Shown: in pieces, positions 14,405 to 55,505 of the stretch
Position numbering within the stretch: position 1 is the stretch's first letter
How the letters are laid out: each line of letters begins with the position of its first letter
Source of the DNA: Diplocarpon mali
Taxonomy: Eukaryota; Ascomycota; Leotiomycetes; Helotiales; Drepanopezizaceae
DNA length: 64,000 nt
Assembly: GCA_024741835.1 (NCBI GenBank)
Contig: JAENRP010000259.1
Location: 1 to 64,000 of the forward strand
Direction of reading: 5' to 3'
The notes under the pieces: generated by a model
The model's database searches: none
Told to the model about the DNA's origin: nothing
What the model saw: only the letters and a program-made list of their open reading frames with translations
Translations under genes and position numbers: made by a program

Positions 14405-14409
14405 GGCAG

Positions 14410-14665: not shown

Positions 14666-15899
14666 TAAGAAAAGATCAACTCAACCTCTGCTAAGAAGCT
14701 TAATATCTACCCCCTTTAGAATCGCCATTTCGAATTGCCTTAAGCAACTCGATCTCTCGACTCTTTTACTATAAACTGCCTTAAGCAACTCGTATATAGC
14801 ACCTAGATCTTACTAATCTAGTTTTTAAAGAAAGCTAAATAACAACCCTTGAATATGAGATCAGCTCGTTTTTTCGACCCCTTACCTACTCTATTCTATA
14901 AATGGAAATTCACCTTTAACTTCAATTCGAAAAGAAAAAAAAATTATTTACTATGCCCTCGCTTTGCTAGCGTAAGCTGCTGCCTAGAGTAATATAATAA
15001 CTTTTCTCTTCTTAACTCTCTCCCTCCCTTATAAACACTTTATACTATATCGACTTATACTTATCGATAACTCTCCTTTTACTCTTTAAAGCTCCTCACT
15101 CCTTCCTTCCCTTAAATACAACTCAACTCTTCGAAAAACCCTCCTTACGAATAAGTCATCAACCTTTTCTATACTCCCTATCGACCTATACTCGTCGACA
15201 ACTCTTCTTATACTCTTTAAAGCTCCTTACCTCTTCGAAGCTCTTTACTCCTTCTTTCGAAACACTTAGGTACGAAACTAAGAGACCTATACTTATATAT
15301 ATATATAAAGACTTAATCAGCCTTAATAGGTTATACTATACCGTTTAGGACTAGGTCAACCTTAGTAGAGTAATAAGCTTTGGACCCTACTTCCTTAGAT
15401 TTGCACTGCACCCCTCCTTATATAACCTTATTATAACTCCTAATTAGTAAAGAGATATAATCCTAAAGTAAAACCTTCTCTCTTAAGATCTATAAACCTA
15501 TAATACCTTAATATATACTCTATTAGAAGGCTTTAAGAACGTATATAGCTCTGCTTGTATTGATCTTCCCCTTTTTAAATAGGTTACTATTTAGCATTAG
15601 GTCCCTTTAGACTAAACTAGATAATATAAAAAGAGTTAGTACTTATAACCTCTAATCTTATGCTACTTAAGAGAAGTAAAAGGTTAACCGCACCTCTATT
15701 ACCAGGCCTTACTGCTACCAGTTCTATAGGCCTTACTACTAACCCTAGTCCTAGAGATATTCTCTCTCTTAAGCCTACTTAAGAAGTTATCTCCCTTAGT
15801 ACCGATTCTACTCCTAGTCCTAGCCTATAAGTGGACTTTTGAAATACTCCTTTTCCATCGATTAAAGTTAAAGAAGAAGATATACTCTTCCTAATAATA

Positions 15900-17000
15900 T
15901 CTACTCTTACTATATCGGCCCCTCTCTTTTCAACTGCCTAATAGGCCGAAATCGCAAACCTTATTAGCGCTGCTATAGCCGCCGCTCTTTAGAATAATGC
16001 GGCCGCCCCTTCTTCCTTAAGTGCTAGCCTTTAAAACACTCGGTCCCTTACCGCCGACTTACTGCCTCCTTTAGACTACTACCTCTTAATCATCCGACCT
16101 TTAGTCTTAATTATCAACCCTTATCGAATTAAGTACCTTTAAACCTATTTTAGCAACTATTAAAGCGAAATTACCTATAATGCTTAAAAGATAGCTATAA
16201 AGGTATTTATTTAAAAGTACTTAAGCAACTTCACTTTAAGAGAGAATTAGATTACTACCTACTTTAAGTATATAATAAGTAAAGCTTAAAATCTAATCTT
16301 ATAATATATAAATCCTATCTTTATTAATAAGTTTATATATGCTACTAATATCCTTAAGGTTTTAAATTAGAAGTTCTTTAACTATAATTATATTTAGTCT
16401 ATTAAGCTTAAATATAATAGGCTAACTATAGGTTTATTATTATATAATAAGTTCTAATTTAAATTTATTACCTTTACTATAGCTAGCAAGATCGATTAAT
16501 TTTACTAGTTTAATAATATTTATAAAAAGGTCTCTCTAACCTTAAAGAACGACCTTTAAATAGAGAAGTATAAAATGAATAATAATTATACTACTTTAGA
16601 TGAGTTCTTAGCTATTATAAACCGCAAGGCCTATAATATTAAGTAAGAAGAAGCCTATAACGCTTAACAAATCGCCTTTGCTATTGCATTCTCTCTCTTA
16701 AAGGACTGCGTCCTTAGTATATTAAAAAGGGAGTTATAAAGACCTATAGCTATAGCTATCTCCTTAGCTCTTTATACTCGTTCTCCTTTGCCGGCGGCCT
16801 ATTAAGAAAGGTCTGCTAGCCCAAAGCCGTCATCTAGTTTCTACTATAATTGCAAAGCCCTTAGTTATTATATAATAGACTGCCTAAAGTTAAAGAAGTA
16901 AGGCGAGTTTATAATAGCTAAAGTTAAGATAGAAAACGACCTACTATTAGGAAACTACTAAGCTATAGCAAAGACTTTTACTATAGTATAAGTTACAATT
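15900..17000 (+). pseudogene. G1 gag remnant with zinc knuckle
   Basis: Coding texture in the plus strand broken by many TAA/TAG. At about 16838-16890 a degraded CCHC zinc knuckle can be read (CYNCKALxHYIxDCxKLKK, with RIP-altered residues marked x or inferred). Gag binds the RNA genome of the element. One 23-bp palindrome (15810-15832) lies just upstream of this stretch. Confidence 0.6.
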
Positions 17001-17199
17001 TATAAAAAGACTTAGATTTTAATTCCTGCCTATTAATAGGCGGCCGCTAGTTCTTAATTCTTATAAAACTAGTTTAAAATAGATTATTTATTAAAATAGT
17101 TACTTATATTAATAGTAGAGCTAATATTTTTAATATTATTAAGACGTCTTTAGTATACTAGCTCTTTTAAAGACTTAGGGTAAAGTTTATTAAACTGCC

Positions 17200-17898
17200 T
17201 AAACCGATTACCCCTATTAACTATAATAGCCTTAAGGGAGAAACTATTCGATTCGCTATCTTACTTACCCTTATAATCGATAGGCGATAAATAAACTTCC
17301 CTTTCTTAATTATAAGCTTAAGAGCAACCGACGTTTTAATTAATAGGAAGTTCTTAAAGCACTATGACTTTAAATAATCCTATAGAAAAGGGAAAAATAG
17401 TATATCCTAGCCTAAGGATATGCCTATCGTCTCCTACTTTAATTAATATATACTAATTGATCTCTTATAACTAATAAAGCCCCTAATAGCCTAGTAAGAT
17501 ATCGATTATTAAATAGTTATAATAGATACTAAGGACAAAGACCTAAGAATAGCCTAAGCCTAGCTCTTAATGCTAGCAAGCAATAACGCCTCAAATCCTA
17601 CTCTTAGTCCTAACCTATAAGTGAAATCTGCGAACTCGAATCCTACTCCTAGTCCTAGCCTATAAGTGAAATCTGCGAACTCGAATCTTACTCCCGGTTC
17701 CGGCCTGCAAGTGAAATCTGCAAACTCAAATCCCACTCCTAGTCCCGGCCTATAAGTGGCCTCTTATAGACCTAAGGATAGCAGTTTCTTTAAAGACTTG
17801 AAAAGAGATCTGAACTATATAAAGAAGGCCTTGCTAAGAGTACCAAACCTCTTGCTCCCTCTCTTAGTAAAGAGAAACGCTCCTTTAAAGATAGCTTA
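17200..17898 (+). pseudogene. G1 protease remnant and palindrome array
   Basis: A degraded aspartic protease end can be read (ATDVLINRKFL, about 17325-17360), the usual C-terminal part of gypsy proteases. It is followed by four 23-bp palindromes at a 45-bp period (17600-17757). The reading frame is then cut by C1 at 17899, with TSD GCTTA. Confidence 0.5.
17600..17757 (+). repeat. Four-unit palindrome array, 45-bp period (G1)
   Basis: Palindromes at 17600-17622, 17645-17667, 17690-17712 and 17735-17757 are spaced exactly 45 bp. The 22-bp linkers are nearly identical (GAAATCTGCGAACTCGAAT type). In the G1 frame each unit reads T-P-S/G-P/S-S/G-L-Q-V-K-S-A-N-S-N, with Gln often turned to stop by RIP. 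Confidence 0.9.
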
Positions 17899-18093
17899 TA
17901 TTAAGCTTAAGTAAGTCGGCGCAGTAGGTAAAGGAGGCTTCTAGAGGTCGATGGTCGATATATTAGTAAGAGTTAAAGAAGGAAGGTTACCCCTTTCTTC
18001 CCTATAGTTATATACGTATTAATATCCTACTAATTAAGTAGTAGGATTATATAACAATATATTAGAGTGATAGCTATATTACCTATCTTAATA
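17899..18093 (-). repeat. C1 3' LTR
   Basis: 195 bp; the ends on the element strand are RIP-altered versions of TGTTGAG and CTCAACA. Abuts the TSD GCTTA. Confidence 0.93.
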
Positions 18094-18231
18094 CCCCTAC
18101 TTAGACCTTACTCTAATTGACCTATAGTTAGGAAAACAACACCTATCCTTTTACGCTAATCCAACTCCTAAGTATCTCTTTAAATTAAAAACAATTAATT
18201 AATAGCAACCTCTATTAAAATCACTAACCCT

Positions 18232-18380
18232 ACTTATAAGGCAGGACTAGGAGTTAAATTTCCTAAAAGCGTTCCTTTATAAGACTATATGACTTAACTC
18301 GCAGTTTAGGCCTAAGAGTCGATTTAAAAACTTTCCTTTATAAAACTATATAACCTAACTTATAAGGCAGGCCTAAGAGT
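18232..18380 (-). repeat. Three palindromes in the C1 3' region
   Basis: 23-bp palindromes at 18232-18254, 18297-18319 and 18358-18380, between the end of pol and the 3' LTR. The same trio occurs in C2 (32742-32891) and C3 (47229-47380), so it was present in their common ancestor. Confidence 0.88.
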
Positions 18381-19259
18381 CGTCCTTAAGCCTATTAAGC
18401 CCCTACTATCTTCTATAACCCTAGTATATCTTTAAACGCTTTAAACTTTGCAACTATCTTTAATAGCTTTATAAATCCATCTACTACTATTTGATTAGTT
18501 AGAATATAAGTAATCAATAACTTATTCTTTATAATAAGGTTATAGATAAAGTAGTAGGTAATATTAATATATTTTAATCGCTTATATAAGTGTGGATTCT
18601 TTATAAGTACAATCGCCCTTATATTATCTACTTAAAGATTAATATAGTTCCTATTTCATTTAATATACTTAGCAAAACCTATATCTTTTAAAACTTAGGC
18701 GATCTATAATCCTTACTTGCAATTTAATAATATTAATATATATTTAGCCTTAGTACTTACAATAGCTATTGATTTCTACTTCCTACTTCCCTATAATATA
18801 GGTCTACTATATAGTACTACTACGCTTCTAGATATACTTTTCCAGCCTTTTATATTTACCTAATTAGAATCGATATATACTTTAAGCTTTGCGCTTATAT
18901 ATTTCATTAATCTATATCTTACCTTCTATATAATTATTAATTAAAGGTACCTTCTAAGTCGCTTAACTATATTCTTATATTAAATTAATAGATCCTTTAG
19001 GTTCTAATTAAGTTGCCTAATAATAAAGGCAATATCTAGTCTTATATATACTATAGTATATATAATTTCTTTAATATCTTATTAGTACTTCTTTAAATCT
19101 CCTTTTTACTTATTTTTATTAATAGGCTCTAACTTATCATACTTTCCTTTAATTAGAGTACGCTTTAGCTTAAAGTTAGAAGCATAAGTAAAGAGTCCTA
19201 TTCGGTCTAGGATCTTCTTAATATACTACTCTTAGTCTAACTAGAGTTCTTAAGTAAAG

Positions 19260-19810
19260 CAGTTCCTTATAATGCAAATACTAAGGATCTTATAAATTCC
19301 CCTTAGATCCTTAGTATTAAAACGTTTCTAAATTATTATAAAGAACCAATCTAATTAAGTAATTGTTTTCGCAGCTATAGTAATATTATTAATATATAAT
19401 AGCAACTTAATTCTACACTTAATATAGGTAAATAGATAAGGGTTAGCTAGGCTTTAAATAAATCCTATTTCTATTAAAGTAGAGCTATATAAGAGGTTCT
19501 AATCATAAGCTGATTATTTAAGCCTATAGATACTGCAAAGTATATAAAAAGAGTAGCTAGTATATATAGGAATACCGTTAGGTTAAAAGAGAAAAATCTA
19601 TTCCTTTATAATTGCTTTAGTAAATACATTTTTAATATTATACTATCTGCATTTAAGGTCCTTAGCAGCTACTATCGCTATAAATATGCAAAGGGTATTT
19701 ATACGAACTATTAGCGCAAATGTATTAAAATAGTCTTCTCTATACTATTAAGAGAAGCCCTTAGCTATAAGCCTTGCCTTATAACGTTCTAAGGTCCTAT
19801 CTATATATAT
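19260..19810 (-). pseudogene. C1 reverse transcriptase remnant
   Basis: By colinearity with C2 (RT at about 31,290-31,860) this is the degraded copia RT. Shared blocks such as GGAATACCGTTAGGTTA are visible in reverse complement. Many stops. Confidence 0.7.
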
Positions 19811-21491
19811 CTTAATTATAAAAACCCACTTTATTAATACTAGGTTTACGTCCTTTAATATTAATTCCTCTATCTATATACTATTTGTAATAAAAGAGCT
19901 TATCTCCTCTTAGATTGCCTTATTCTATACTACTCTATTCTCCGGATTATTAATAGCTTTATTATATATCTTTAAAAGAGAGATTTTCATTATCTCCCTA
20001 GCGGCTAAGAACGTATTATCTTTATTAAAGCTCTATTAAAGTTCGAGCTCGTAGATCCTATATACTATTATAGCTTAAATACGCTTAGACTCGCGTTTAT
20101 CTAAGGTATCTTCCGATTCTAAGTCTCTATTCCTCTTTAAAGACGTAGGTTCAGCTATAGGTTCTATAGGCTTATTATCTAAGGAACCGCCTTTTAATAG
20201 TAGAGGCTTATTGCTACTTGTACCTATTTTAGGAATATCCTTTACTATAAGTACTTTAATTAAAGGGATAATAATATTAAAGTTGTTTTATACTTTAGAT
20301 AGTTCGCAGATAATAGGAATAGTCTATTCGGTCTTTAAGCGATTAGCAGGTCGTCGATTAGTAGGTGCGCTTAATATACTTAAGCTAAAAGAAAGAGGTT
20401 ATTAGTTCGGCTTAATAGTATTACTATCGATTAGTATACCTTACGAATCTCTAAGTATATAAAGCTTTAAGGATAGCTCCCTCTTATTTTAAGATTTATT
20501 AAACTTAATTACTAAGGATATAATTACTCACTTTAGATCTAGCGTATATACTATCTATTGCTTTATTATCTATTTAATATACTTAATAAATATATACTCT
20601 TTACCTCGGTCTATTAGCTTCTTACTCTTTATACCTATAGGCTAGGACTTCAGGCTAATATAAGAGTAGCAAACGCTTTTAAAGACGCAGATATAGTCTA
20701 GGCTTAATTTCTATTTAAAATATACTTTATATAGTAATATTTAAGTACTATTAACTATTAGTCTATTACTTATTCTATTTTATAAGTATACGTTTGCCTT
20801 AACCGCAAGGTCTTAGAATTCTAATAGCAAGTTAGCATCTTGCAATAGAGCGCGATAGTTAGTCTCTACTTACTAAATGCTTCGCTTAATAATACTATTT
20901 TAATAGGAACCTTTATATATTATAGTTAGTTTATAATAAATTCCTTATTTTACCTATTTATTAAGCTTTGCCTTAATCTCTAATACATTATTAGACCTAA
21001 TAGCTATTAGCTTTAACTAGGTTTGGCATTCCTCTATCACTTTCTAAGTTTCTAGCTTTTCTATAAGCTTAGATTTAGTCCTAGTGCAAATAGTCTATAT
21101 CTATTAAGTAGAGTTATCTACTATTTAAAAAAACTAATTATTTCTTTTAATTAAGGTTGTAAATAGTCTAGTAGTATTAATAAATATTAGTGCTAGTATT
21201 AAATCTTTTTATAAATTAAGCTTAATTTGCATTTGATTTTAAAGTTTTATTAGCTTGCAAATTTAGCATATTAGGCGATCCTTTAATACTTAAATTTTCC
21301 ATTTTAAGGTCGAGACCTTATATAGGCCCCTTAATTTCTTTAGCTTTAGATATGCGAATCTTTTATATATTAGCTAATACCTTAATAGGCTTTCGGCTTC
21401 TAATAGCTTTAATAGCCTATTATTAGTTAATACTTTATTATTAGTAGCTAAAAAGGACTAGTAATAGCAGTTTAAGGTTTTGCCGTTTTCT

Positions 21492-21787
21492 AATTGCAAG
21501 CCTGGCTTAAGAGTCGTTTTTAGTAAAACCGCGAGATCTACTTGCAGTCCTGGCTTAAGAGTCGATTTCCCGGAAATAGCAAGATCCACTCGCAGTCCTA
21601 GCTTAGGAGTCATCTTTAAAGACACTTTGCAATCTACCTATAGTCCTAGCTTAAGAGTCATTTTTACGAATTTTACTTGCGATCCTAGCTTAGAAGTCCA
21701 TCTATTCTCCTTATCCTTACTTAATTATATTAAGGTAAAGAGTGCACTTTCCTTAAAGGAATCCACTTATAAGTCTAGCTTAAGAGT
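21492..21787 (-). repeat. Six-unit palindrome array in C1 pol
   Basis: 23-bp palindromes start at 21492, 21540, 21588, 21636, 21675 and 21765, with spacings of 48, 48, 48, 39 and 90 bp, all multiples of three. C2 and C3 have eight units at the equivalent place; C1 lacks a 39+48-bp pair. The 113-aa frame open on the plus strand (21480-21821) is antisense to the element and exists because the palindrome has no stop on either strand. Confidence 0.9.
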
Positions 21788-23714
21788 CAATTTCTATAAT
21801 ATTACCTTTAAAATAACGTAAAGTCTATCTTTGATTTTAGCTTTAAAGATCACTTTATAGTTATTATTTATAAACTATATAAATTAATTATTAAAAACTC
21901 TTATATAATTCAACTCTATATAAATCTTATAGTTAAATAAAAGATTAATACCTAAGCTAAGTATAAGGAGAACATTTTATAAAAGGAAAGAAACGCTAGC
22001 AATATTCATCTCTACTATACCTATTGAGTCTATATATAACCTTCTATTACTAACCTTAATAAAGCGCCTTTTTATTTTAATAAATAGGCCTTTAAATAAG
22101 TGAAGTTTATTAGTTATATATGTTATATAATTAGTATTACTATATTAATTAAATTCAAGGATCTTATAAAGATTGGCTTTTAAAATATAAGCATCTTTAT
22201 TATAATTATTATCTAAATTATTAAAAGTGGATTTAAGTTTAAATAACCTACTATTATTATTAAAGGTATTTGCTAAAGTTCTGGCTAAATAGCCTTTTCC
22301 TTTGCCTTTCTTTAATAACTGCAGCCTTTAGTAAGATAAGGGCAGTTTACTTCTTAACTTCTACTTCGATTACTTCTTAATATTAAAGCTAGCGACTATA
22401 TTAATCAATTACCTTCTAACTTTATAATTAGTAATATTATAAGTACTATTATAAAAGTAGCATCTTCGATAAGCTTAAAGGCTTATCCTACGCTCTTTCC
22501 TCTTTTTAGGCTTATTATTACCTTATAATATAGTATTTGCCGATTTAAAGCGTCCTTTAAGGTCTTACTCAATAGTTTAAAAGAGGTCGATCTTCTTATA
22601 GATCTTAAAGTTGGGTTAAATAAAAAGAGATTATTTTGTAATAGCAAACTTAAAAGGGAGGCTATTAAATAGGAAATTAAAAAGCTGAGTTTCCTTAAAA
22701 GTTATAGCTATCTTAAGATCTATAACTCTTACTCTCCTCCTTACTTTATATAATATAGATTAAGTAGAGTCTATATTTATACCTATATCCTTACTATTTT
22801 TATCTTTTTTATATTAAAATAAAGTGATCTACTATAGTAGATACTAAGTATTAAAGGCAATTGTTTAAGAGTATTTTACTTTTAAAGTATCTTATCTTAT
22901 CTTTGCATTATTATAAACTTAAATAAAATCTCAGTCTTTATCGCTTAAACCTTTATTAATCTTAAGCTTGCATTTAGCTAAGGCTAGCCTATACTCCTTC
23001 TCCTTTTCTATATTTAAAATCTACCTTTAGGATTCTTGGTTATTATCTACTAAGGCTCTTAGGCTAAGCTTATTTAATATATTTGGCAAAACCTTAGCAG
23101 TTATATTAGCTATTAAAGTGGAAGTAGATGAATTAATAGAAGGAGTATAAGGGGCTATTCTCGCGTATTTAATAAGTATCTTTTAAATTGCTATTTTAAT
23201 GCCTTTGCTTTTAAAGTAAAGCTCTAAATCGTCGAACTATTATTGTCAGTTCTTTCAAAAGAGTTAAAGGTCTCTAGGTCTAGCATTTCGATCGGAATCA
23301 GAAGCCATTACTATTTCGAATAGAACTGCGTTTAAAATCAAATAAATTAAATAGTTAAAGGCACTCCTTTTATCGAAAAGTTAAAGTGATTAAATAGCAG
23401 GTATTATAAAAGTATTAAATAGGGAGGAAGTCCTTTTATTAAAAAGGGTTTTTAAGCTATAATATAAGGAATCATACCTCTTATAAAATATAGTAAAGCA
23501 AGGAATTATACCTCTTATAGTACTAAAGGGTTTATAAAGCAAGGAATCATACCTCTTGCAATATAGGTTAATTAAATAGGGAATTATACCTCCTATTCGC
23601 CGATTGCTCGCCTTTTACTATAAGTCTTATTCAACTTCCTACTAATAGTTATAACGCAAGTGCTTTCTAAAGGAAGTTAATAATCTATTATCGGTCTATC
23701 TAAGGCTTATAACC

Positions 23715-23909
23715 TATTAAGCTTAAGTAAGTTGGCGCAGTAGGTAAAGGAGGCTTCTAAAGGTCAATAGTCGATATATTAGTAAGAGTTAAGGAAGGAA
23801 GGTTACCCCTTTCTTCCCTATAGCTATATACATATTAATATCCTACTGATTAAGCAATAGGGTCATATAATAATACATCGGAGTGATAGCTGTATCACCT
23901 ATCTCAATA
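23715..23909 (-). repeat. C1 5' LTR
   Basis: 195 bp, the same length as the 3' LTR; abuts the TSD GCTTA at 23910-23914. Confidence 0.93.
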
Positions 23910-23914
23910 GCTTA

Positions 23915-25560
23915 CTAGATTAGCCTAATCTTAGCCTTAATAATCGGCGCCTTCTACTACCGCTTTATAATTAAGGCAAGGCAAGCTATATAAACTCAAG
24001 AACCGGCGCCTAAAGAGTTCATATTCGTAAGCTCAGTTTACGATCTAGACTAAGAGATCAATCGCCGAGAATCGGCTAAGCAAGCTGAAATTAGCTCCCT
24101 TGGCCTTAGTTCGGCGCTGCAAGCCAAGTATAAGAGTAATAACAAGCTAATAGATCAGAAGCTCCCGCCTTAGTATACTAAGTTTAAAAACGTCTTTAAT
24201 CACTAGGCCTTTAATCAGCTGCTAAAACCCAGGCTAAGGGTAGATTATAAAATCGAGCTAATAGGCGAGAATAACTTGATAATCGAGCCCCTCTGCCGCC
24301 TTACTAACAAATAGCTCTTAAAGGTCAAGAGCTATATTCTTAAGAACTTATATAAAGGATTTATCAAAGCTTTAAATTCCCTTTAAGTAGCCCTAATCCT
24401 CTTTATTAGAAAAGCTAATAGCTTCCTACGTTTATACGTCGATTACTAGAAACTAAACGCTTTAACGAAAAAAGACCCCTACCCGATTCCCCTTATCAAT
24501 AAGATAATGGCACGCATATCGAAAGCTTGTATTTTTATAAAATCGATATATAATAAGCCTTCTATTATATCTGCATATTAGCTGACGCTAAGGACCTAAC
24601 TACCTTTCGCACGCGTTATAGGACTTACAAATATAAGGTTTTGCTATTCGGGCTAATAAATAGGCCTGCTACCTTTTAGTAGTTTATTAATAATATTCTC
24701 CTTAACTAATTTAACGATTTCTGCTTTGCCTATTTAGATAATATTCTAATCTACTTAGAAAACTCCCTTGACTATAAGATTTATATTAAGAAGATCTTAG
24801 GAATTCTTTAACGCTATAGCCTTTAAGCAGATATTAAGAAAAGCGAGTTTAAGGTTATTAAGACTAAGTTCTTAGGATTTATTATTAAAGTTTATAGAAT
24901 TAAGGTAGACCTTGATAAGGTCTTAGTTATTTAAAAGTGGAAATATGCTAAGAATATATATAGTATATAGAGCTTCCTAAGGTTTTATAATTTCTATTAA
25001 AGGTTTATTTAAGGCTATAGTTATATCTGCCGACCTTTAATAGCTTTTATAAGGAATGTTCCTTTTGATTTTAATAACGCTTATAAAGAAGCTTAGGAAA
25101 CTCTGCGCTTAAGCCTTTAAATAACCCCGATTTTATACTACTATTACCCTTAGAAGCAGATAAGGCTTAAGACTAATGCCTCCGATAGCATAGTCACTAG
25201 TATACTCTCCTAACTCTAGGAAGACGATAACTACTACCTAATCGGGTACTTTTCAAAGACTATAAATAATACTAAGCTAAATTACCCTATTTATAATAAG
25301 GAGCTCCTAGCGATTTTTAAATCGTTCTACTAGTATAAGGCAAAGCTACTTAAGGCTTAGAAAATAGTATATATATATAGATTATAAAGCCCTTGAGTAC
25401 TTTATAATAACTAAAGACTTAATAGCCTAGCAGGCCTGCTAGGCAGAGTTCTTTGCTAACTTCAACTTCTTTATCATATATTAAATAGGTATAACGAATA
25501 CGCTAGCTAATATACTCTTACATTAAGACTAAGAGCTAACCCCTTTTAAGGCCAGGAAAT
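23915..25560 (+). pseudogene. G1 RT and RNase H remnant
   Basis: Degraded gypsy RT. Readable motifs are a FLRLYVDYxKLNALTKKDPY-type block (about 24,420-24,480), LLFGLMNRPATFQ (about 24,640) and YLDNILIYL in place of YLDDILIY (about 24,725-24,760), the catalytic YxDD box. RNase H follows with KTNASDS (about 25,165) and YFSKTINNTKLNYPIYNKEL (about 25,250). This is the standard Ty3/gypsy order. x marks stops created by RIP. Confidence 0.85.
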
Positions 25561-25634
25561 GAGCTTTACGCCACTAGCAGCTCTTACCTAACGATAAGCT
25601 CTTTATAGAAGTACTTGCTATTAGAAACGATTCT

Positions 25635-25702
25635 ACTCCTAGGCCTGCCTTATAAGTGACTTTAGCGTAGATCAATTCTACTCCTAGGCCTAGCCTACAA
25701 GT
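25635..25702 (+). repeat. Two palindromes, 45-bp spacing, between G1 RNase H and integrase
   Basis: 25635-25657 and 25680-25702; both read in the G1 frame as T-P-R-P-A/S-L-Q-V-T. The spacing equals that of the array at 17600-17757. Confidence 0.88.
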
Positions 25703-25799
25703 GACGATTATGCCAATCGCGCTAATAGAAGCACCTGCTGACCTAATGTTAAGGGTCGAGTATAATATAGTGAGCTACTATATTATTAATAAGGTTATT

Positions 25800-27126: not shown

Positions 27127-27321
27127 TATTGAGATAGGTGATACAGCTATCACTCCGATGTATTATCATGTGACCCTACTGCTTAGTCAGTAGGATATTG
27201 ATACGTATATAGCTATAAGGAAGAAAGGGGTAACCTTCCTTCCTTAACTCTTACTAATATATCGACTATCGACCTTTAGAAGTTTCCTATACTTACTGCG
27301 CCAACTCACTTAAGCTCAATA
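27127..27321 (+). repeat. C2 5' LTR
   Basis: 195 bp, beginning TATTGAGATAGGTGATAC and ending TTAAGCTCAATA. Confidence 0.93.
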
Positions 27322-27443
27322 GGTTATAAGCCCTGGATAGACCGATAATAGATTATTAACTTCCCTTAAAAAGCACTTGCGCCGCAACTATTAATAGGAA
27401 GTTGAACAAGACTTATAGTAAGAGGCGAGCAATCGGCGAATAG

Positions 27444-27567
27444 GAGGTATGATTCCCTATTTAGCTAACCCGTATTATAAGAGGTGTGATTCCTTGCTTT
27501 ATAACCCTTTGGTACTGCAAGAGGTATGATTCCTTACTTTACTATATTTCGTAGGAGGTATGATTCC
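27444..27567 (+). repeat. Four leader boxes in C2
   Basis: The 13-bp box GAGGTATGATTCC (one copy with G for A) occurs at 27444, 27481, 27521 and 27555, between the 5' LTR and gag. The same set is visible in C3 (about 41,918-42,042), C4 (about 63,840-63,972) and, reversed, in C1 (about 23,460-23,600). Confidence 0.8.
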
Positions 27568-43734: not shown

Positions 43735-44117
43735 ACTCCTAGGCCAGACTTATAAGTAGGTTCCTTTAAGGAAAGTGCACTCTCTGCCCTAATACAATTA
43801 AGTAAGGATAAGGAGAATAGATAGACTCTTAAGCTAGGATCGCAAGTAAAATTCGCAAAAATAACTCTTAAGCTAGGACTATAAGTAGATTGCAAGGTAT
43901 CTTCGAAGATGACTTTTAAGCTGGGATTATAAGTGAATTTAGTAGAAATAACTCCTAAGCTAAGACTGCGAGTAAATTCTGCAAATTCGCTAATAACGAC
44001 TCTTAGGCCAGGACCGCGAGTAGATCTTACTATTTCTAGGAAATCGACTCTTAAGCCAGGACTGCAAATAGATCTTGCGGTCTTACTAAAAACAACTCCT
44101 AAGCCAGGCTCGCAATT
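43735..44117 (+). repeat. Eight-unit palindrome array in C3 pol
   Basis: Units start at 43735, 43825, 43864, 43912, 43951, 43999, 44047 and 44095; spacings 90, 39, 48, 39, 48, 48 and 48 are identical to C2. The last two units have decayed right ends. The 142-aa minus-strand frame here (43701-44129) is antisense. Confidence 0.92.
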
Positions 44118-45774
44118 GGAAAACGGCAAAACCTTAAACTGCTATTACTAGTCCTTTTTAGCTACTAATAATAAAGTATCAATTAATAATAGGCTACTAA
44201 AGCTATTAGAAGCCGAAAGCCTATTAAAGTATTAGCTAATATATAAAAGATTTGCGTATTTAAGGCTAGAGAAATTAAAGGGCTTATATAAGGTCTCGAC
44301 CTTAAAACAGAAGATCTAAGTACTAAAGGATCACTTAGTATACCGAATTTGCAAGCTAATAAAACTTCAAAATCAGATATAAACTAAGCTTAGTCTATAG
44401 AAAGATTCAATACTAACGCTAATATCTATTAATACTATTAGACTATTTATAACCTTGATTAAAGGAAATAATTAGTTTTCTTAAATAGTAGATAATTCTA
44501 CTTAATAGATATAGACCATTTGCACTAGGACCAAATCTAAGCTTATAAAAAAGCTAGAAACTTAAAAAGTGATAAAGGAACGCTAGACCCAATTGAAACT
44601 AATAGCTATTAAATCTAATAACGCATTAGAGATTAAAGTAAAGCTTAATAAATAGGTAAAATAAGGAGTTTATTACAAACTAACTATAATATATAAAGGT
44701 TCCTACTAAAATAGCATCGCTAAGCGAAGCATCTAGTAAGCAAAGACTGACTATCGCGCTCTATTATAAGATACTGACCTACTACTAGAATTCTAGGACC
44801 TTGCGGTTAAGGCAAATATATACTTATAAAATAGAATAGGTAGTAGACTAATAGTTAATAGCATTTGAATATTATTATATAAGGCATATTTTAAATAGAA
44901 ACTAAGCTTAGACTATATCCGCGTCTTTAAAAGCATCTACTACTCCTATATTAGCCTAAAGTCCTAGCCTATAGGTATAAAAAGTAAGAAGCTAATAGAG
45001 TAAGGTAGAAAGTATATATTTATTAAGTATATTAAATAAATAATAAAATAATAGATAGTATACGCGCTAAATCTAAAGCAAGTAATTATATCCTTAATAG
45101 TTAAGTTTAACAAATCTTAAAATAAGGGAGAGCTATCCTTAAAGCTTTATATACCTAGAGATTCGCAAGGTATACTACTTGATAGTAATACTATTAAGCC
45201 GAACTAATAACCCCTTTCTCTTAGCTTAGGCATATTAAGCGTACCTACTAATTGACGACCTACTAGTCGTCTAAAGGCCGAATAGACTATTCCTATTATC
45301 TGCAAACTGCCTAAAGTATAAAATAACTTTAATATCATTATCCCTTTAATTAAAGTACCTATAGTAAAGGATATTCCTAAAATAGGTATAAGTAATAACG
45401 AGCCTCTATTATTAGAAAGCGGTTCTTTAAATAATAAGCCTATAGAACCTATAGCCGGAACTACGTCCTTAAAAAGGAATAGAGACTTAGAATTAAAAGA
45501 TACCTTAGATAAACGCAAGTCTAAGCGTATCTAGGCTATAATAGTATATAGGATTTATAAGCTTGAACTTTAATAGAGCTTTAATAAAGATAATGTATTC
45601 TTAGCTACTAAGGGGATAATGAAAATCTCTCTTTTAAAGATATATAATAAAGCTATTAACAATCTAGAGAATAGAGCAGTATAAAGTAAGGCAATCTAAA
45701 AGGAGATAAGCTCTTTTATTGCAAATGGCATATAAATAGAGGAACCGATACTAAAGGATATAAACCTAGTATTA

Positions 45775-47180
45775 ATAAAGTAGGTCTTTACAATTAAGAT
45801 ATATATAAATAGAACCCTAAAGCGTTATAAAGTAAGGCTTATAGCTAAGGGCTTCTCCTAATAGTATAGAAAAGACTACTTCGACATATTTGCACTAATA
45901 GTTCGCATAGATACCCTTTATATATTTATAGTAATAATAGCCGCTAAGGACCTTAAATACAGATAGTATAATATTAAAAATGCATTTACTAAAGCGATTA
46001 TAAAGGAACGGATTTTTCTCTCTTAACCTAACGGTATTCTTATATGCGCTAGCCACTCTCTTCATATACTTTACAGTATCTATAGGCTTAAATAATCAGC
46101 CTATAATTGAAACCTCTTATATAGTTCTACTTTAATAGAAATGGGATTTATTCAAAGCCTAGCTAACCCTTATCTATTTACCTATGCTAAGTATAGAATT
46201 AAGTTGCTATTATATATTAATAATATTACTATAGCTGCGAAAACAACTACTTAATTAGATTAGTTCTTTATAATAATTTAGAAACATTTTAATACTAAGG
46301 ATCTAAGGGGAATTTATAAGATCCTTAGCATCTATATCATAAGGAACCGCTCTACTCAAGAACTCTAATTAGATTAAGAGCAGTATATTAAGAAGATCCT
46401 AGACCAAATAGGACTCTCTACTTATACTCCTAACTTTAAGCTAAAGCATACTCCAATCAAAGGAAAGTATAATAAGTTAAAGCCTACTAATAAAAATAAG
46501 TAGAAAGGAGATCTAAAGAAGTACTAATAAGATATTAGAGCAATTATATATACTATAGTATATATAAGACTAGATATCGCCTTTATTATTAAGCAACTTA
46601 GTCAGAACCTAAAGGATCTAACGATTTGATATAAGAATGCAATCAAGCGACTTAAAAGGTACCTTCGATCGATAATCATATAGAAGGTAAGATACAGACT
46701 AATAAAATATATAAGCGCAAAACTTAAGGTATATACCGATTCTAACTAGGCAAATATGAAAGGTTGGAAAAGTATATCTAAAAGCATAATAATACTATAT
46801 AATAGACCTATATTATAAAGAAGTAGGAAGTAGAAATCAATAGCTACCGCAAGCACTAAGGCTAAATATATATTAATATTATTAAATTGCAAGCAAGGAT
46901 TATAAATCGCCTAAGTTTTAAAAGATATAGGTTTTACTAAGTATATTAAATAAGATAGGAATTGTATTAATCTTTAAGCAGATAATATAAGGGCGATTGC
47001 ACTTATAAAAAATCTATACTTATATAAGTGATCGAAATATATTAATATTGCCTACTACTTTATCTATAACCTTATTATAAAGAATAAGTTATTAATTACC
47101 TATATCCCAACTAATTAAATAGTAGCAGATGGATTTATAAAGCTACTAAAGATAGTTGCAAAGTTCGAAGCATTCAAAGA
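45775..47180 (+). pseudogene. C3 RT and RNase H remnant
   Basis: Colinear with C2; readable blocks include the KNAFTKAIIKERIFL region (about 45,975-46,020), LLYINNITIA (about 46,205) and KSIATASTKAKYILILLNCK (about 46,835-46,885). Inactivated by stops. Confidence 0.8.
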
Positions 47181-47228
47181 TATACTAAGGTTATAAAAGA
47201 TAGTAAGGGCTTAGTAGGCTTAAGGATA

Positions 47229-47380
47229 ACTCCTAGGCCCGCCCTGCGAGTTAGGTCATATAGTCTTATAAAGTAAAGTTTTTTTTTAAATCGACTCCTA
47301 GGCCTAGACCGCGAGTCAAGTCATATAATCTTATAAAGGAACGCTTTTAGAAATTTAACTCCTAGTCCTACCCTACGAGT
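47229..47380 (+). repeat. Three palindromes in the C3 3' region
   Basis: 47229-47251, 47294-47316 and 47358-47380, the same trio as in C1 and C2, with spacings altered by small length changes (65 and 64 bp). Confidence 0.88.
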
Positions 47381-47518
47381 AGGATTGGTGATTTTAATAG
47401 AGGTTGCTATTAATTGATTATTTTTAATTTAAAGAGATACTTAAGAGTTAGATTAGCGCAAAAGGATAGTTATTATTTTCCCAACTATAAGTTAATCAGA
47501 GTAAGATCTAAGTAAGGG

Positions 47519-47713
47519 TATTAAGATAGGTAATATAGCTATTACTCTAATATATTATCATATGACCCTACTGCTTAGTTAGTAGGATATTAATATATAT
47601 ATAGCTATAAGGAAGAAAGGGGTAACCTTCCTTCCCTAACTCTTACTAATATATCGACCATCGACCTCTAGAAGTTTCCTATACCTACTGCGCCGACTCA
47701 CTTAAGCTTAATA
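47519..47713 (+). repeat. C3 3' LTR
   Basis: 195 bp, heavily transition-mutated relative to the 5' LTR; followed by the TSD AAATT. Confidence 0.93.
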
Positions 47714-48199
47714 AAATTAGAGAATTCCAAGGGCCATTTAGGTTAAAAGGTTATTAATAGCATTCGCATAAGCTAAAAGGAGATTTTATTGCTTTATATT
47801 TCCTAAGGCTACGTAGGTCGATTTGAAGTTTTCTAATAATATAATAGCTCTACTATCTTAAGAGAAGTTTATAACTAGTATTTATTTATCTCTTATTATA
47901 GTAGATAAAACCATTTGTAAGTTCTTTAAAGGCATATTACTTATAAAAGATAGGGAGTATAAATAAGAGAGTTTAATAGGATATAAGAATTAAAAGGGCA
48001 TATAAGCTGCAATAGGTTTACTATATATATATTAAGGAAATTGGACTTTTTTATTTATTATTTAAGGAAAGTAATAGGAATGCTATAATTAAAGGCTAAT
48101 ATTAAAAATATAAAATAAGTCAAAGCAGGCAAGAATTTAAAATGATCTTAAAAGATCTATATCCTAAATAATAAAGGAGGCGTCTTTACTAAAAATGTA

Positions 48200-49930
48200 A
48201 AAATAAAGATTAAAGGAAGGTAGGACAATTGATAGGCTAGGAAATCATTTAATATTCCAGTTTGCATTCTTCGGATATTTTAGAAATAATAACTTAAGGT
48301 TGCGATTAATTAGGTATTTTAATATTCTTTACTTATAGGACCAACTTATAAGTTAAGTTAGAAAAATCTTGGTTATTATCTAAGGGTTTAAAGTTGCTTA
48401 TATTGCTATCGATTCTTATAAAAGATTCAAAGGTTATATTAATTTCTAATTCGTCTTTTAAAAGGAATAAGGTCTAGTTGCGTCGATAAAAGCACTTTAG
48501 TCGATTAGCTGCAAAGGTTCCTTTAATATCGACTCTATTAAGTTCTTAAAGAGAATAGTATCCCTTTTCTTTCTACTTAGACTTAACCTTAAATAGATTA
48601 AGCTATTAATAGTTAAGTTTAGTATCTACTAATATATTAATACTTCTTATAATATTATAAATTAAGATGAGATTATCTTTTTAAATAGGGTGCATTTTAA
48701 ATACTTTAAAAGCAGCCTATACTTCTTTAGCTTTTTCCCTATATTATTTCTTTTATAAAATGATTTCCTTTATATTTATATCTTAGAGCTTAAGTTGTTA
48801 GCATCTTATTACTAGCAAATCGGAACGGTTCTAAATTTGACTATAGTTAAATAATCTTTAAATAGGCTATTGGGATTTAAAAGGGAGCTATGCCTCTTTG
48901 CTATAGATAAGGAAAAATAGTATAACTCCAATCGGTTTATAGATTATCGTTCGATAAGTAAAGAGTATTTTATAAAAGTGTTTTATCTAATTTTTAAATC
49001 CTTTATAAGTAACTTTAAATAGCCTATTAAGAATATTGTAATATTCTTACTCTACTACTCTATTAACTTTCGAGTTATATATTAAGATTTGAACCCGTTT
49101 GATACTATATTTTTACAAAAAAGCTTTAACTACTCTTTTATTTTTAAGGCCTCTATTAATAGTTAGTCTGCTAAAAAGTCTATAGCGATAGACTACGTCT
49201 TCTTAAAGGAACTTTGCAATAGATTTAGAGTTAGCAGATCTTAAAGGTTATCCTTTAAGCCATCTTAATAGGTCTTCCTTTATTAGAATAAAATATATAA
49301 TCCTATTTTTAATTATTAGTACTTATATAATATTAAGACTGACTTTATAGAAAAGGCCTAATAGCCAGGTTAAGAATAGGAGATTCTCTTTATAATTAGG
49401 TTTTCGTTTCTAATAAGGGGCGCAACTTTTTATAAAGGCTTTATAATCCTTAAAAGAACCCTTTTAAAAGAATTTCCTTAAGAGTTAGTGGTAGGTAGAC
49501 TTAGCTCCTTAGTAGTCAGTTTCCTTATAAATATCTTAAATAGCCTTAGCCCTTAGATTTTCATTATCTAAGTAGAGTTATATAAGGAATAAGTTATCGC
49601 TCCTTTTAAATAATCGTCTTTCTTATATTAGATAAATCAGAGCTTTAGCTTTGAATTTTTAAAAATCTTTAAAAGCAATTGTCTTTAGTCATTTAAGTGT
49701 AATTAAAAATTTTATGATTTCTTTAGAGTCACTTAAGTAATTAAGTAATAAAATTCTCTTATTTAACTCGCGGGCTAGGCTTGCAAGTCGAGTCCCTTTA
49801 AGGTAATATATTAATAGATAACCAACTTCGTTCTCTACCCACTTATTAATATCTATTTTATCTTCTTTAATTAAATCAAAGGGGTAGGGATAAGTTCTTC
49901 TTAAAAGGCTATTAGCAATAGTATTTTTCA
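48200..49930 (-). pseudogene. G2 integrase and linker remnant
   Basis: The 80-codon stop-free piece at 49689-49931 (ANSLLRRTYPYPFDLIKEDK, INKWVENEVGYLLIYY) is the segment after RNase H typical of fungal gypsy elements. A palindrome at 49766-49788 lies inside it and is read in a different phase (LASLAREL). Downstream, the minus strand at about 49,120-49,210 shows a degraded integrase core. Many stops elsewhere. Confidence 0.65.
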
Positions 49931-49999
49931 TTCTTAGAATATATTTAACTTTAAAGTCTATTAGTCTTATTTAAGTAATCCATTTTATTAGCAAGGCTC

Positions 50000-51240
50000 T
50001 TAATAGGTCGCTTGCAGCTCTATTCAATTATTCTACTAGCACTTTAGTATTAGTTTTAAAAATAAAGTAAGTACTATAGAGGTCGCTTCTTATCTTTTTT
50101 ATCGCCTTTAAAGCGCCTTTGCATTCCCATTTAGTAGTATTATACTTTATCTCTACTAGATTCTAAAGACCACTTTTAAAGTAAGCTAAATGTCTTTTCT
50201 ATTAGCTATTAGCTTATTAAAGGATAGCACCCTATCCGATTAAGCTTGCGTCAACTATTAGTATAATTGGTCTAGCGTTAGCTCTATAGTCTATTTTAAT
50301 CAGATATAGCGCCTTAAGCAACGCTTGCTTTAGTTGTTTTATAGCCTCTATTTAAGGTTCCTCCTATTGAAACTCAGCCCCTTTCCGAAATAAGGAGTAA
50401 ATAGGTACTGCCTTTTTAGCGAAATCCTTGATTTAAATGCAATAGTATATTATAATGCTAATAAACGCGCGAGCTTCTACTATATCGTTATACCTCTTCT
50501 ATTTATCGATTTTAAGTACTTTAGCCCTTTAAGGACTTCGGCTATTAGAATTAGTAATAAAACTAATAATTTCCATTAATAGAAGATAGTATTATAACTT
50601 CGGACCGACTATTGCTCTTACCCTTTTAAATCGTATAAGCACTTGGTCTAGGTTCTAAATGTGTTCTATTATAAATCGCTATATACTAAGGAGAACTTCT
50701 TTATAGTTATAGAATGATCTTAATCCTTTTACTCTTATATTATCTATATAAGGGAGTGCAATATTAGGTATATAATCTACTAGTATCTTATAGATTACTT
50801 AGATAAATTGAGCGATCGAATTTATAGCCCCTTAAGGTAATCTTATCATTTGAAGTAGCTTAAGAGGGGTTTGAATTGCTATTATATCTCTCGATTTAAC
50901 ATTAAGAATAAATTGGTTGTATTTAAAGAAGAAGTTAATAAGAGAGCTGCAGGTTAATCTTGCGAATTCATTTAAGAACTTATCTATATTCAAAGGAATG
51001 TTAGCGTCTTTAATAATTACTTGATTCATCTCTACTATTACTATTATTAGTTTGTAAGTTCCCTTCTCTTTCTTAGTAATTAAGAACCATTTGTTCCTAT
51101 AAGGGCTATTATAGAACTTGAGAATACCTTACTTTAGCCTATCCTTTAATATTTCGATTACCTTTTCTTAAAAAGCTTTAAGGACCTTAAATGTTTTCTC
51201 TTACTAGGCTTTATAAGGTATTATCTTAATCTTAATATAA
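50000..51240 (-). pseudogene. G2 reverse transcriptase and RNase H remnant
   Basis: Gypsy RT on the minus strand: SPYRNKWFLITKKEKGTYKL (about 51,120-51,060), then the stop-free stretch 51029-50832 with IKDANIPLNIDKFLNEFA and SSLINFFFKYNQFILNVKSR, then PYIDNIRVKG (about 50,740, the YxDD box). RNase H follows towards 50,000. Clear Ty3/gypsy relationship; inactivated by RIP. Confidence 0.85.
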
Positions 51241-53399
51241 GGTGTGACCTTTTCTTAAATCTAGCTAAGTTCTATTTAATTAAAAGCTAAGATATCCTTT
51301 TGATTTATTAAGGTTTTATAAAGTAGTTCGCATTCTTATTTTATTAAATCTTCTCTAATTTTCAATATATTAAAACGTTCTTTTATTAGCTAATATCCGA
51401 TAGGTTTATTAGAAAATCTACTTATAATAAACTTATCGAATTTGCCACTTAGCTTTAAAGGTCGAAGCTTCTTATCTTATTCAAATTAATTATCCAGTCC
51501 TTTAGGCTTTAAGCTATTAAAGATTCCCTAATCTATTAGTTGTACTTTGTTAGCCTTGCTTTTATATATAGTTCGAATATTAGCTAATACTATACTTCTC
51601 TACTTCTTTCCTTTTTTATCAAATCCTATAAAACGGTCCGAATTTTCCTTTTTAAAAATAAATAAAAGATTTTCTAAGTTATTAATTTAAAGTGCATAGA
51701 TAGAAATATTATTAGTAATTTTATTATTTTTCACTCGCAGGTCCGGCTTATAAGTAGTTTTTAGATTTTTCAAAATAATTAATAAATTATCAAAATTTAT
51801 AAAACAAACCCTCTTTTCTACTTTATTTTTCTTTTTTCTTAATTATTATTTTAATAAAACGCCGATTATACTATTTTTCAAAATTCCAGATTTGACTCTT
51901 AGTCTAGGACTATAAGTCAAATTGCTATTATTCAAAATCGGCAAACTTACCTTTCTTTTGCTATAACTCCTCGCTAAGTGCCTTCCTTTACTAGCATTAA
52001 GCCTAGCCCTTATACTAGCTAATTGTTTCTTAAAACCTTATTTTAAAATTCGACTATATCTCCTATAATAACTATTTATCCTTCTAAAGATCGATCTATA
52101 TTTTAAAGACTAGCTTTTATAAGACTATTTTTAAAATAGTTAAATATTAGCTAAGATTTTAAAATAAAGGGCATTCTTAAAAGAATATTATTTAAAGAAT
52201 TCTCTATTATTAGAAAGTTAGTATAATTAATAACTCTTTTAACTTTAACCTTTACATTTTTCACCTATTTATTAAAATTGTATTTCAATTTAAAGATAGT
52301 TGAATAAATAAGGAGTCGATCGCTAATAATTATTAATTAAGCTATTTCTACCACTTTTCTAATTATTATATTAACTTTTGAACTATAATCGATTAGAGCC
52401 TTTGCTTTAATTAATTCTTCTATTAAATAAACAATAATAGGGCTTTTTATCGCAACTGCTAAACAATTTCGATTGATATTCTAAGATATTAAAGCTATTG
52501 CCATAATATTATAGTACCTTTAGGTTCTTTCGTTTTCTACAATCTAAAGACATTTAATTAAGATTAAGTACTTCTTAAAGTTCTTTCTTATTATAATTTC
52601 CATTTCCTTATTATTATTTAAATCTTTAAAGGCAATTAGGATATGCTTTCCTAGCACTTTATTAAAGCGTTTAATCAAACTAAATAGGTCTTTAAATATA
52701 AGGTTAATTTACTAAGCTATAACATTCTCTATAGCTTTCTCTATTGCAATTAAACTAACATATTTATTAATGAATTTTTCCTATTTTAACATCTATCTCT
52801 TTCGCTTAAAGTCAAGGGTCTACGTAATAACTTCAATTTCTTAATCTTTAAGCTTAAAGCCATCTTTGTCTATTATATCTCTAATCAATTTATCTACTAT
52901 ATCGGCTTTATCCTCATCTATTGCGGTTCTAGATTATTAGGTATCTTTTAGCATTTAGACTCTATATTAAGATTCCTAAATTGCATATATTGATTTCTGG
53001 ACTTTAGCTGGTTTTATTAGTATTAAAGGAGTGGTAGATCTAAAAGGACGCTAAGTATTCTAAGGGTTTCTAAATACAAAAGTAGTATTAATATTAGCAG
53101 ATATATTATTATTAACCTATCTTAAGACAAAGATGCCTTTAACTTCTATAGCTATTTGATCAAAAGCTAGGTCCTTAAGAACTCCCTTAGGTAGGTTGCT
53201 AGTTGGACTAGTATATATATAAGTTGGAATTTTAGCATTCATATCTATAATATGCTATTATTCGACTAAATTCTCGTCCTATTTTATACTATATATTATC
53301 GTTTGAATAGTTTATAACTATAAGCGATTCTAGTACTTTTTAATAGGGATAGCTTTTAGCCTAGGATCTCTAATACAAAGCATCCCATACTTATTAATA

Positions 53400-54650
53400 T
53401 GCATAACCCTAGTATTAATAAAATAATAGAAAAGAGGGCAATTATTATAATACTTATATAAAGCGCAGTTAGATTCTTTATTATTGCAAAAGTTGCAGGT
53501 TAGTTGTCTTCTATTGCCATTCCCTTAGTACCTTATAGTATTAATATTAGTAAAGTGCTAATTAAGATTAATTTCTCCTTCTTCAATTAACTATTAAGTT
53601 CTTATATTAGCTAGTTATTCCAAATGATAAGAAATAGGAGTCTGGTAATAGAAACTACTATATTAGCTTATAATAGTCGAGTTTTACTTATTACTAAATT
53701 AGGGAATATACTATTTTTCCTATAAGAGATTATTAATCCTAGTTTCTAAGCTTTAGATTCAGAGTTCTGCAAATTAGGTCTTAAGTTCCTTAATTCTAAG
53801 GTTGGATCTTACTCCTAAGTCAGGCCTATAAGTAAAAGGTATAACTACTAGGTTCTTCTTTACCTCCTTTATAACTTCTAAAGCCTTTAAGTATTCTTAA
53901 ACCAGGCTCTTAAGGTCTTTAGTATAAGAGGGAGTAGGGGCTTTTTCCTACTCTATAGTATTAATAGTTCTCTTATTAAGATCTGATTTTAAAGCAAAGG
54001 CTGCGAATTCCTTAAATAAGGCAAAGGTTATAAGGTCTTGCTTATTAATCTTAAAATGCTTAATAATCTTATTTTAAAGTCCAATAGGTAATCTAAGTAA
54101 GAAAAGGCGGCCTTTTTCAACTTTACTAAGTATTTTCTAGCTAATTAAGGTATTCGATATATAAGTAAAAGTCCGATAGTAGTTCTTAAGTTCCTTAAGA
54201 GTATAAGTAATTAAAATAAATTCCTTTAAGAAAGCCAAGGTATTGCAAATCTACTATTTATCAAATTCGCAGAATTCAGATTTAAGGGCCTTAATAAGGA
54301 GTTCTTATAAATTATAAGTTTTCCATTTAAAGAGGGACTTAATAATATCCTTACTTATATAATTATAATAGTAAGGAAGTTGAGAAATCATATCCTTTTA
54401 TATAATACTAAAATTGTAATAAGTTTCCTTATATTACTTAAGGAAATTAGTAATATTAGCGCCTATAAAGTAAGGAGCGCTAGGAGAACTAAGAAGGAGA
54501 AAGTGATTAGTAATAGCCCTAAATGCGGCTATTATCGTTTTATACTAACCGTCTAAGTTAATAGAATTTATAAAGGGCAAAGGGGAAGCTTTAATATTGC
54601 GAGATTAATTGCTAAAAGGAGTACTTCGAAATTCAAAAGGGCTTAAAGAA
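53400..54650 (-). pseudogene. G2 gag remnant
   Basis: Degraded gag on the minus strand. Blocks include ISQLPYYYNYISKDIIKSLF, CNTLAFLKEFILITYTLKEL and RLFLLRLPIGL (about 54,400-54,080), which resemble the retrotransposon gag domain of fungal gypsy elements (curated knowledge of the family, not a search). Stops are of the RIP type. Confidence 0.6.
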
Positions 54651-55505
54651 TATTTAAAATCCGAGTCAATCTTAGAGTAATTAGGATAAGTTTAAAAAGA
54701 TTTAAATAAAGGGTTAGTAAAAAGTTTAAAATTATTATTATTTTTAATATTTTCTAGTATTAATATTAAAAAAGTAAGTAGCAGTCCTAAGTTGTTTAAA
54801 GATGTCTTTTTATCCTTCTACTTATAAGCTAGGCTTAGGAGTAGAATTCCGAATTCTATTAAAAGTTTAATCTAAGTTTGCTAAAAGATTTCAAATAGGT
54901 ACTAAATAGCTAATAGGAGCGTTGTGACTAATTGTAATAAGATAAGGTTTACCTAATTAAAGACCAATTTCTAAGATAAGGTTTATATTTAAGATTCTTC
55001 TTAGCCTTTAAGCCAATTCCTATTAGTCCTTAAAATAAAGGGGTCTTTAAAGACGATTCTAAGGTAATTTTTAAAGTTCTATTAAGCTAAGGCAGCTAAA
55101 TTATCGGATTCGGATTTCTAAAGATTCTAAAGAGGCACTTCCAATTAGAGTTTGCGCTTAATATTACTTAAGTACTTAAAACTACTGCTATTTGAGATTA
55201 CTATTATAAGGTTTGCTAAACTTTTCATACTAAGAAGCCGAAAATTCCGAAAATCTTAAAGTTAAGGAAGAAAATAGGGGTTTTCAAAGCAGAGCTGAAA
55301 AGGGAAAATCTAAGGTTATTAATAGTTGCTAAACGAAAATCGACAGTTCTAAGTAACTAAGCGATTAAGGATAAGGGTTTTAAAGTTGATTAAAATGCTA
55401 TAAGTATTTCAAAGACGTATTTTAAAGGCTAATCTCTTATTTACAAATTAAAAGATCGATAAGGTCGTATAAGGATAGAAATCTTAAGAAATCGGTCCCT
55501 ATATA

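Follow-up and report, generated by a model that had tools for sequence, protein, structure and literature searches.

How has one short palindrome come to lie more than fifty times in retrotransposons of different families? We addressed this question in a 64,000-nucleotide stretch of Diplocarpon mali DNA (contig JAENRP010000259.1, positions 1 to 64,000; hereafter the window, contig C259 in our numbering), where a sequence-only reading had listed 51 copies of a 23-bp unit with ~11-bp arms. The explanation we consider probable is a ~27-bp palindromic insertion that entered its source elements about 20 or more times, was filtered by reading frame and was then copied by its hosts; arrival by insertion is what we infer from the evidence below.

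Checked letter by letter in the window, all 51 listed starts carried a unit of 23 bp with arms of ~11 bp, in 48 distinct sequences. A symmetrised profile (score ≥14) marked 52 places, where 20 first-order Markov controls averaged 0.25, its one addition to the earlier list being 48331–48353. One weak profile score fell at 308, inside the gene-rich, GC-rich (GC 0.53) first 14 kb, a segment with no unit at ≤2 mismatches. The genome search covered the assembly that contains the window (49.37 Mb in 676 contigs), with the pattern read backwards as control and with repeat counts taken as lower bounds. The degenerate palindrome ACYYNYRRKYYNRRMYYRNRRGT fitted exactly at 8,662 sites (control, 1), which disposes of the chance frequency that the sequence-only reading had named as a possible refutation. 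One form with ≤3 mismatches gave 551 forward and 586 reverse matches (1,137; control, 1 + 0), the symmetrical form 505 sites (control, 0) and the wholly unmutated form 58 (control, 0); overall, the reversed-pattern controls gave 0–2. On contig C1, among the matches listed, none lay between 3.7 and 292 kb, one lay at 292 kb, and clusters occupied 395–445 and 507–523 kb. The unmutated pattern was absent from genome_contigs and viral_contigs, which served as a specificity control only, and no Rfam family reached its gathering score in the window.

Conservation extends beyond the 23 bp, to about 27 bp, because a pyrimidine at −2 and a purine at +2 are nearly fixed. The claim that every copy is exactly 23 bp thus holds for the core (51/51) and falls short for the conserved stretch. 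Flank clustering gave 28 contexts (strict) or 21 (loose), from loci chosen by pattern or protein match and hence not a random sample. Left out as overlapping were L025–L032 (alignment), together with L035–L038 in the strict set; the loose set left out L025–L032, L035–L038, L034, L015 and L044, and the count of 181 units also six loci with long interspersed nuclear elements (LINEs). A pyrimidine at −2, read outward on both sides, was found in 56/56 flanks of the 28 contexts and in 42/42 of the 21 contexts (P = 4.5e-13); −3 was a pyrimidine in 38/42 flanks, and −5/−6 were A-rich. Across the 181 units, 176 had the −2 pyrimidine and 180 the +2 purine. A conservation claim for positions 1–3 and 21–23 was dropped, since the search pattern fixes those positions. 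The unmutated form is ACTCSCGGKCCNGGMCCGSGAGT, and 676 of 723 changes from it (93.5%) are C>T or G>A, peaking at two CpG pairs, in keeping with the earlier attribution of the variants to repeat-induced point mutation (RIP)-type change, although RIP is usually described as CpA-biased.

In the window, the units sit in three long terminal repeat (LTR) families, copia E1, gypsy E2 and gypsy X (Table 1). E1 copy 2 encodes in one frame RVT_2 above cut-off and SH3_retrovirus and Retrotran_gag_2 below cut-off, which marks it as copia; gypsy X encodes RVT_1, RT_RNaseH_2, Integrase_H2C2, rve and SH3_Tf2-1 on the plus strand of 23910–27126; and E2 is assigned to gypsy by RT_RNaseH and Integrase_H2C2 in the homologous locus L039. 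A second copia (copia-2), on contig C21 (L015/L046), also carries units, giving two copias and two gypsies in total. Domains and positions thus bear out the earlier claim that the unit crosses element families. The E2 pol region matches at least 116 genome places. Its 14 units stand singly, 0.16 kb to several kb apart, and arrays exist in E1, X and copia-2. The LTR repeats of E1 and E2 hold no units, nor do the LINE parts of six loci drawn from 16 LINE matches; two of these six have units in adjoining E2-like DNA, and one has a weak match in adjoining E1. Pfam scans of X 14000–19000, the L040 plus frames, L043 and most L017 frames gave no usable match.

Units are also read through in uninterrupted proteins. 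Despite its stops, copia-2 is 87% identical (93% in the best copy) to the intact 1491-aa Diplocarpon coronariae protein PZA11_001233 (P0001), and the best protein match of E1 is D. coronariae PZA11_002196 (P0039; 69% to a heavily mutated copy); E2 pol had no close intact relative, with seven matches at 20–25% identity. The copia-2 and E1 matches point to a Diplocarpon, probably D. coronariae, as the host. P0001 holds five in-frame units, two encoding TREPGPGV in the gag–protease linker and three encoding TPGPGPRV in the linker from integrase to reverse transcriptase (RT), and P0039 holds eight between protease and GAG-pre-integrase. The other 45 of the 47 retrieved proteins, several of them partial with the linkers uncovered, contain no units; P0040, a relative of P0039, has none. 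The protease-to-pre-integrase linker measures 174 aa in P0039 against 82 in P0040, BLASTP leaving 139 against 35 residues unaligned, and the gag–protease linker measures 48 aa in P0001 against 18–26 in the close relatives covering it (P0002, P0003, P0005 and P0006). Among the copia-2 copies, C185:503–4948 (L045; 15 stops, 93% to the intact D. coronariae protein, GC 0.47) is far less decayed than the four others.

Most coding units read in frame 0 as T-P-G-P-G-P-R-V-like octapeptides, the four-unit X array reads in one frame as T-P-x-x-x-x-x-V-K/A-S repeats, and the coding-array spacings (39, 45, 48, 54, 66, 72 and 90) are all divisible by 3. In the RNase H–integrase region, the E2 unit lies in frame +1 and three other units in frame 0; what recurs is therefore DNA, not a peptide. 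The two X units in this gap share the integrase frame; that copy has a frame change at some point between its RNase H and integrase domains. In 5/5 copia-2 copies examined, the stop codon is followed by a T run and then an untranslated unit, and the E1 triples near the 3′ LTR are spaced 61–66 bp apart, differing between copies.

Comparison of element copies bears on inheritance, gain and loss. Each of the 14 E2 units of the window has a counterpart at the corresponding element position in each of the two C1 copies of E2 (one of these 28 counterparts has 2 mismatches to the pattern), and E1 copies 2 and 3 have all 11 units in common, copy 1 having 9 because its array is two shorter. Since all E2 units recur at the same places and none is private, the thousands of copies reflect retroelement copying, not thousands of jumps. 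The sequence-only proposal of a mobile palindrome accordingly survives for the many unrelated places and fails for the copies as separate movements; its other suggestion, a sequence repeatedly templated into retroelements, is possible and close to our best reading. L043, L017, L023 and L052 are short, apparently internally deleted gypsy E2 relatives that still carry units, so non-autonomous derivatives have propagated units as well. L043, ~60–70% identical to E2, has one unit and one decayed unit at E2 positions, and the E2b copies (L052, L017 and L023) carry one at a place without a unit in E2 and L043. When all loci were aligned against one another, no unit had a 23-bp gap beside it, and only an array gap of 39 bp appeared. 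The gag–protease pair and the 3′ unit are common to five copia-2 copies, whose integrase–RT linker holds two units at 45 bp (L045), two at 72 bp (L046, L047 and L049) or three (L048). The 72-bp form keeps sequence like both L048 spacers, without the middle unit. When stretches of 7–39 bp around that unit were removed in trials, taking out 27 bp (the unit with TTTC before it, or with TTC before and T after it) gave the closest agreement with L046, a 6-bp indel and a few substitutions remaining.

Several other accounts could place one palindrome in different families. Descent of all the elements from a single ancestral sequence would suit the sites that E2 shares with its relatives; it cannot explain the units as a whole, because positions differ between families, copia and gypsy places being unrelated and non-homologous, and because both orientations occur, even within one element (copia-2). 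An artefact of RIP-altered composition is contradicted by the reversed-pattern controls and by the unmutated forms being the GC-rich ones. Both variants, of which the sequence-only reading had itself raised the first, are refuted, and we give them practically no credence. Convergent proline-glycine linker peptides, palindromic by codon coincidence, would account for the octapeptides of most coding units; the frame +1 reading in E2 pol and the untranslated copia-2 unit largely refute this idea, which we hold to be highly improbable.

Exchange between retroelements, by recombination or template switching of co-packaged RNAs followed by tandem duplication, would require no insertion property of the unit itself. 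Array length varies, and units have so far been found only in LTR elements (0 in the LINE parts of the six loci, 0 in 14 kb of genes), as exchange would have it. Template switching should, however, carry longer stretches, whereas copia and gypsy contexts share only a short AT-rich preference, and positions and frames differ; exchange is possible but, in our view, rather doubtful. A functional cis-element under selection, that is, a DNA site bound by a dimer or a hairpin in the RNA aiding LTR elements in transcription, packaging or escape from silencing and gained by convergence or exchange, would fit one palindrome occurring in four families, many times per element and with multiplied arrays. 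The unmutated core contains CGG-N7-CCG, which we take to resemble Zn2Cys6 half-site layouts, and a good fold was obtained for the symmetrical variant (−13.0 kcal/mol, z −4.2). The asymmetric unmutated variant, on the other hand, folds little better than shuffles (z −1.3). Of the 11 mirrored pairs, 6/18, 7/17 and 8/16 match above expectation, an excess that C>T decay striking both partners may produce; the remaining 8 show no excess, 5/19 lying clearly below expectation, and covariation was rejected as proof of structure. Moreover, units are scattered across whole elements, many in coding linkers and none in the E1 or E2 LTR repeats, and we judge a selected cis-element unlikely.

The insertion account that we prefer would run as follows. 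A very small palindromic insertion sequence, comprising the 23-bp core and its nearly fixed outer neighbors (~27 bp), would have entered replicating (source) elements of the Diplocarpon lineage some 20 times or more, each time at a different place and in either orientation, and no fewer than four LTR families (copia E1, copia-2, gypsy E2 and gypsy X) would have received it. Surviving insertions would be those that kept the frame or fell in untranslated stretches or inter-domain linkers. Some units may later have multiplied locally into tandem arrays, and retrotransposition of the hosts would have spread units to thousands of genomic places before C>T mutation decayed them. The restriction to LTR elements, in a limited sample, suggests acquisition during LTR element replication. 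Our leading guess, that reverse transcription or integration captured an end of DNA or cDNA prone to form hairpins, would explain that restriction. A narrower version, which we advance only tentatively, is a nuclear selfish palindrome of ~27 bp (nine codons) that parasitises LTR retrotransposons, crosses between copia and gypsy, might insert without target duplication at AAtTYN/NRAaTT-like cDNA/DNA sites, and would be carried in the reading frames of its hosts as a tolerated linker peptide.

A number of observations weigh against insertion. Six of the 181 units, all in E1 arrays, break the flank rule. The exact ends and duplicated target bases that the sequence-only reading had proposed to look for did not emerge: at 28 sites, no target duplication exceeded chance (1 bp in 8/28, with ~7 expected by a hand estimate from base counts; 2 bp in 1; ≥3 bp in 0). 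No private unit was found, neither C1 E2 copy having an extra unit at ≤1 mismatch, and E1 units are common to the copies except for array length. L043 already holds two E2 units, so some units are old, and re-joining the flanks of the E2b unit in comparison with E2 and L043 fixed no insertion ends at that divergence. Of the copies with and without the unit that the sequence-only reading proposed to compare, copia-2 supplies one 27-bp presence/absence difference, which may be a precise gain or a precise loss; both fit, loss being plausible because similar spacers flank the unit. Linker length alone is no proof of insertion, because distant unit-free relatives also have long linkers: the gag–protease linker measures 76 in P0004 and 55 in P0009 against 52 in P0001, and the protease–pre-integrase linker 189 in P0042 against 176 in P0039, all with linker anchors other than those behind the 174/82 and 48 aa figures. 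The P0001 integrase–RT linker, with three units, has 69 aa against 72–78 in four relatives, so that its length reveals no net gain. Finally, no enzyme was found; a DDE_1 search of the genome gave no match, though its controls gave none either.

Among known systems, miniature inverted-repeat transposable elements are non-autonomous inverted-repeat insertions, longer than the unit and with target duplication; the unit resembles them as an inverted-repeat insertion but is far shorter and shows no such duplication beyond chance. Minisatellites differ in being head-to-tail, whereas the 14 E2 units stand singly and arrays occur only in E1, X and copia-2. Repetitive extragenic palindromic (REP) sequences of bacteria are linked to the RAYT transposase. 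The unit may work like Rickettsia palindromic elements (RPEs) or mitochondrial GC clusters, although it lacks defining features of each. The in-frame state in P0001 and P0039, five and eight presumably inserted units in uninterrupted proteins, recalls RPEs, which the excerpts of PMC2229807 used here describe as scattered palindromic repeats that protein genes carry as in-frame fusions, with target duplication marked '?'. According to the same excerpts, RPEs are 105–146 bp long, bacterial, and found in intergenic DNA as well as in host genes for proteins and RNAs, whereas the unit measures 23–27 bp and is nuclear, eukaryotic and housed in retrotransposons. RPE-like spread through diverse host genes was seen neither in the 14 kb of window genes nor at 3.7–292 kb among the C1 matches listed. 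Yeast mitochondrial GC clusters (e.g., GC42) and other organelle hairpin repeats are treated in the cited part of PMC4478555 as mobile short GC-rich palindromes; the GC clusters lie in mitochondrial DNA with AG/ACT direct-repeat flanks, in contrast to window sites in nuclear LTR elements beside genes, where a 2-bp direct repeat occurs in 1/28 and a longer one in none. REP sequences, 20–40 bp palindromes in the portion of PMC3733652 cited, are similar in size and palindromy but are extragenic and prokaryotic. PARCEL elements, in the cited portion of PMC2996958, are dyad-symmetric DNA coding tandem protein repeats and linked to mobile elements in some taxa; they differ in sequence and length and encode a 25-residue amphipathic motif in reading frames of other function. 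No description of the unit was found in the literature searched, most subscription journals lying outside its reach, and 'palindrom' occurs 0 times in the main text of two Diplocarpon genome papers (PMC5628827 and PMC11527701).

Table 1. Host elements and units in the window; homologous positions of E2 units are given as locus:position
Feature	Positions	Strand	Remarks
Gypsy X	14405..33718	+	Interrupted by E1 at 17899-23909 and 27127-33329; outer limits provisional
Gypsy X, presumed LTRs	14405-14665, 33458-33718		261-bp direct repeat, 88%
X unit	15810..15832		Context recurs elsewhere, in L006
Four X units	17600..17757 (17600, 17645, 17690, 17735)		45-bp spacing
Two X units	25635..25702		45-bp spacing, between RNase H and integrase
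Copia E1 copy 1	17899..23909	-	Inverted repeat of the other two E1 copies
Three units near 3′ LTR, E1 copy 1	18232..18380 (18232, 18297, 18358)
Six-unit array, E1 copy 1	21492..21787		Two units fewer than other copies
Copia E1 copy 2	27127..33329	+	LTRs present
Eight-unit in-frame array, E1 copy 2	29248..29630 (29248, 29338, 29377, 29425, 29464, 29512, 29560, 29608)		Between protease and GAG-pre-integrase regions
Three units 5′ of 3′ LTR, E1 copy 2	32742..32891 (32742, 32803, 32869)		Spacing 61 and 66
Copia E1 copy 3	41601..47818	+	Within E2
Eight-unit array, E1 copy 3	43735..44117 (43735, 43825, 43864, 43912, 43951, 43999, 44047, 44095)
Three units, E1 copy 3	47229..47380 (47229, 47294, 47358)
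Gypsy E2	33919..55760	-	Interrupted by E1 at 41601-47818
Gypsy E2, presumed LTRs	33919-34167, 55512-55760		249-bp direct repeat, 90%
E2 unit	34409..34431		L040:7266
E2 unit	34834..34856		L040:6841
E2 unit	35656..35678		L040:6019
E2 unit	36886..36908		L040:4789
E2 unit	37072..37094		L040:4603
E2 unit	38678..38700		L040:2959; symmetrical arms
E2 unit	39563..39585		L040:2074; decayed unit at same place in diverged relative L043
E2 unit	40949..40971		L040:688
E2 unit	48331..48353		L039:7426; missing from earlier list
E2 unit	49766..49788		L039:5991; between RNase H and integrase, frame +1
E2 unit	51733..51755		L039:4024
E2 unit	51895..51917		L039:3862
E2 unit	53811..53833		L039:1946
E2 unit	54820..54842		L039:937; also in relative L043; the E2-like part of L053 has a unit

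Beyond the tabulated features, a further E1 copy begins at 63526–64000 and runs off the window edge. The gene-rich edge (110–1192, 5477–8930 and 9828–11340) yields translations that, by eye, are short-chain dehydrogenase-like, TPR/NB-ARC-like and GMC oxidoreductase-like. Stop counts 3′ of the E2 integrase (L040:1–8000, C1:402001–410000) are uneven, with 129 in one plus frame but 258 and 327 in the others, and suggest that this gypsy of ~14–16 kb has a long extra reading frame, for which no Pfam match was obtained.

In-frame palindromic insertions are on record for bacteria, as are coding palindromes for animal mitochondria. If the selfish palindrome were borne out, it would be, to our knowledge, the smallest such insert in a eukaryotic nuclear genome. 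A nuclear case spanning copia and gypsy would demonstrate the spread of very short DNA on retroelements, and would offer both a source of new linker peptides and a countable system for finding the insertion mechanism.

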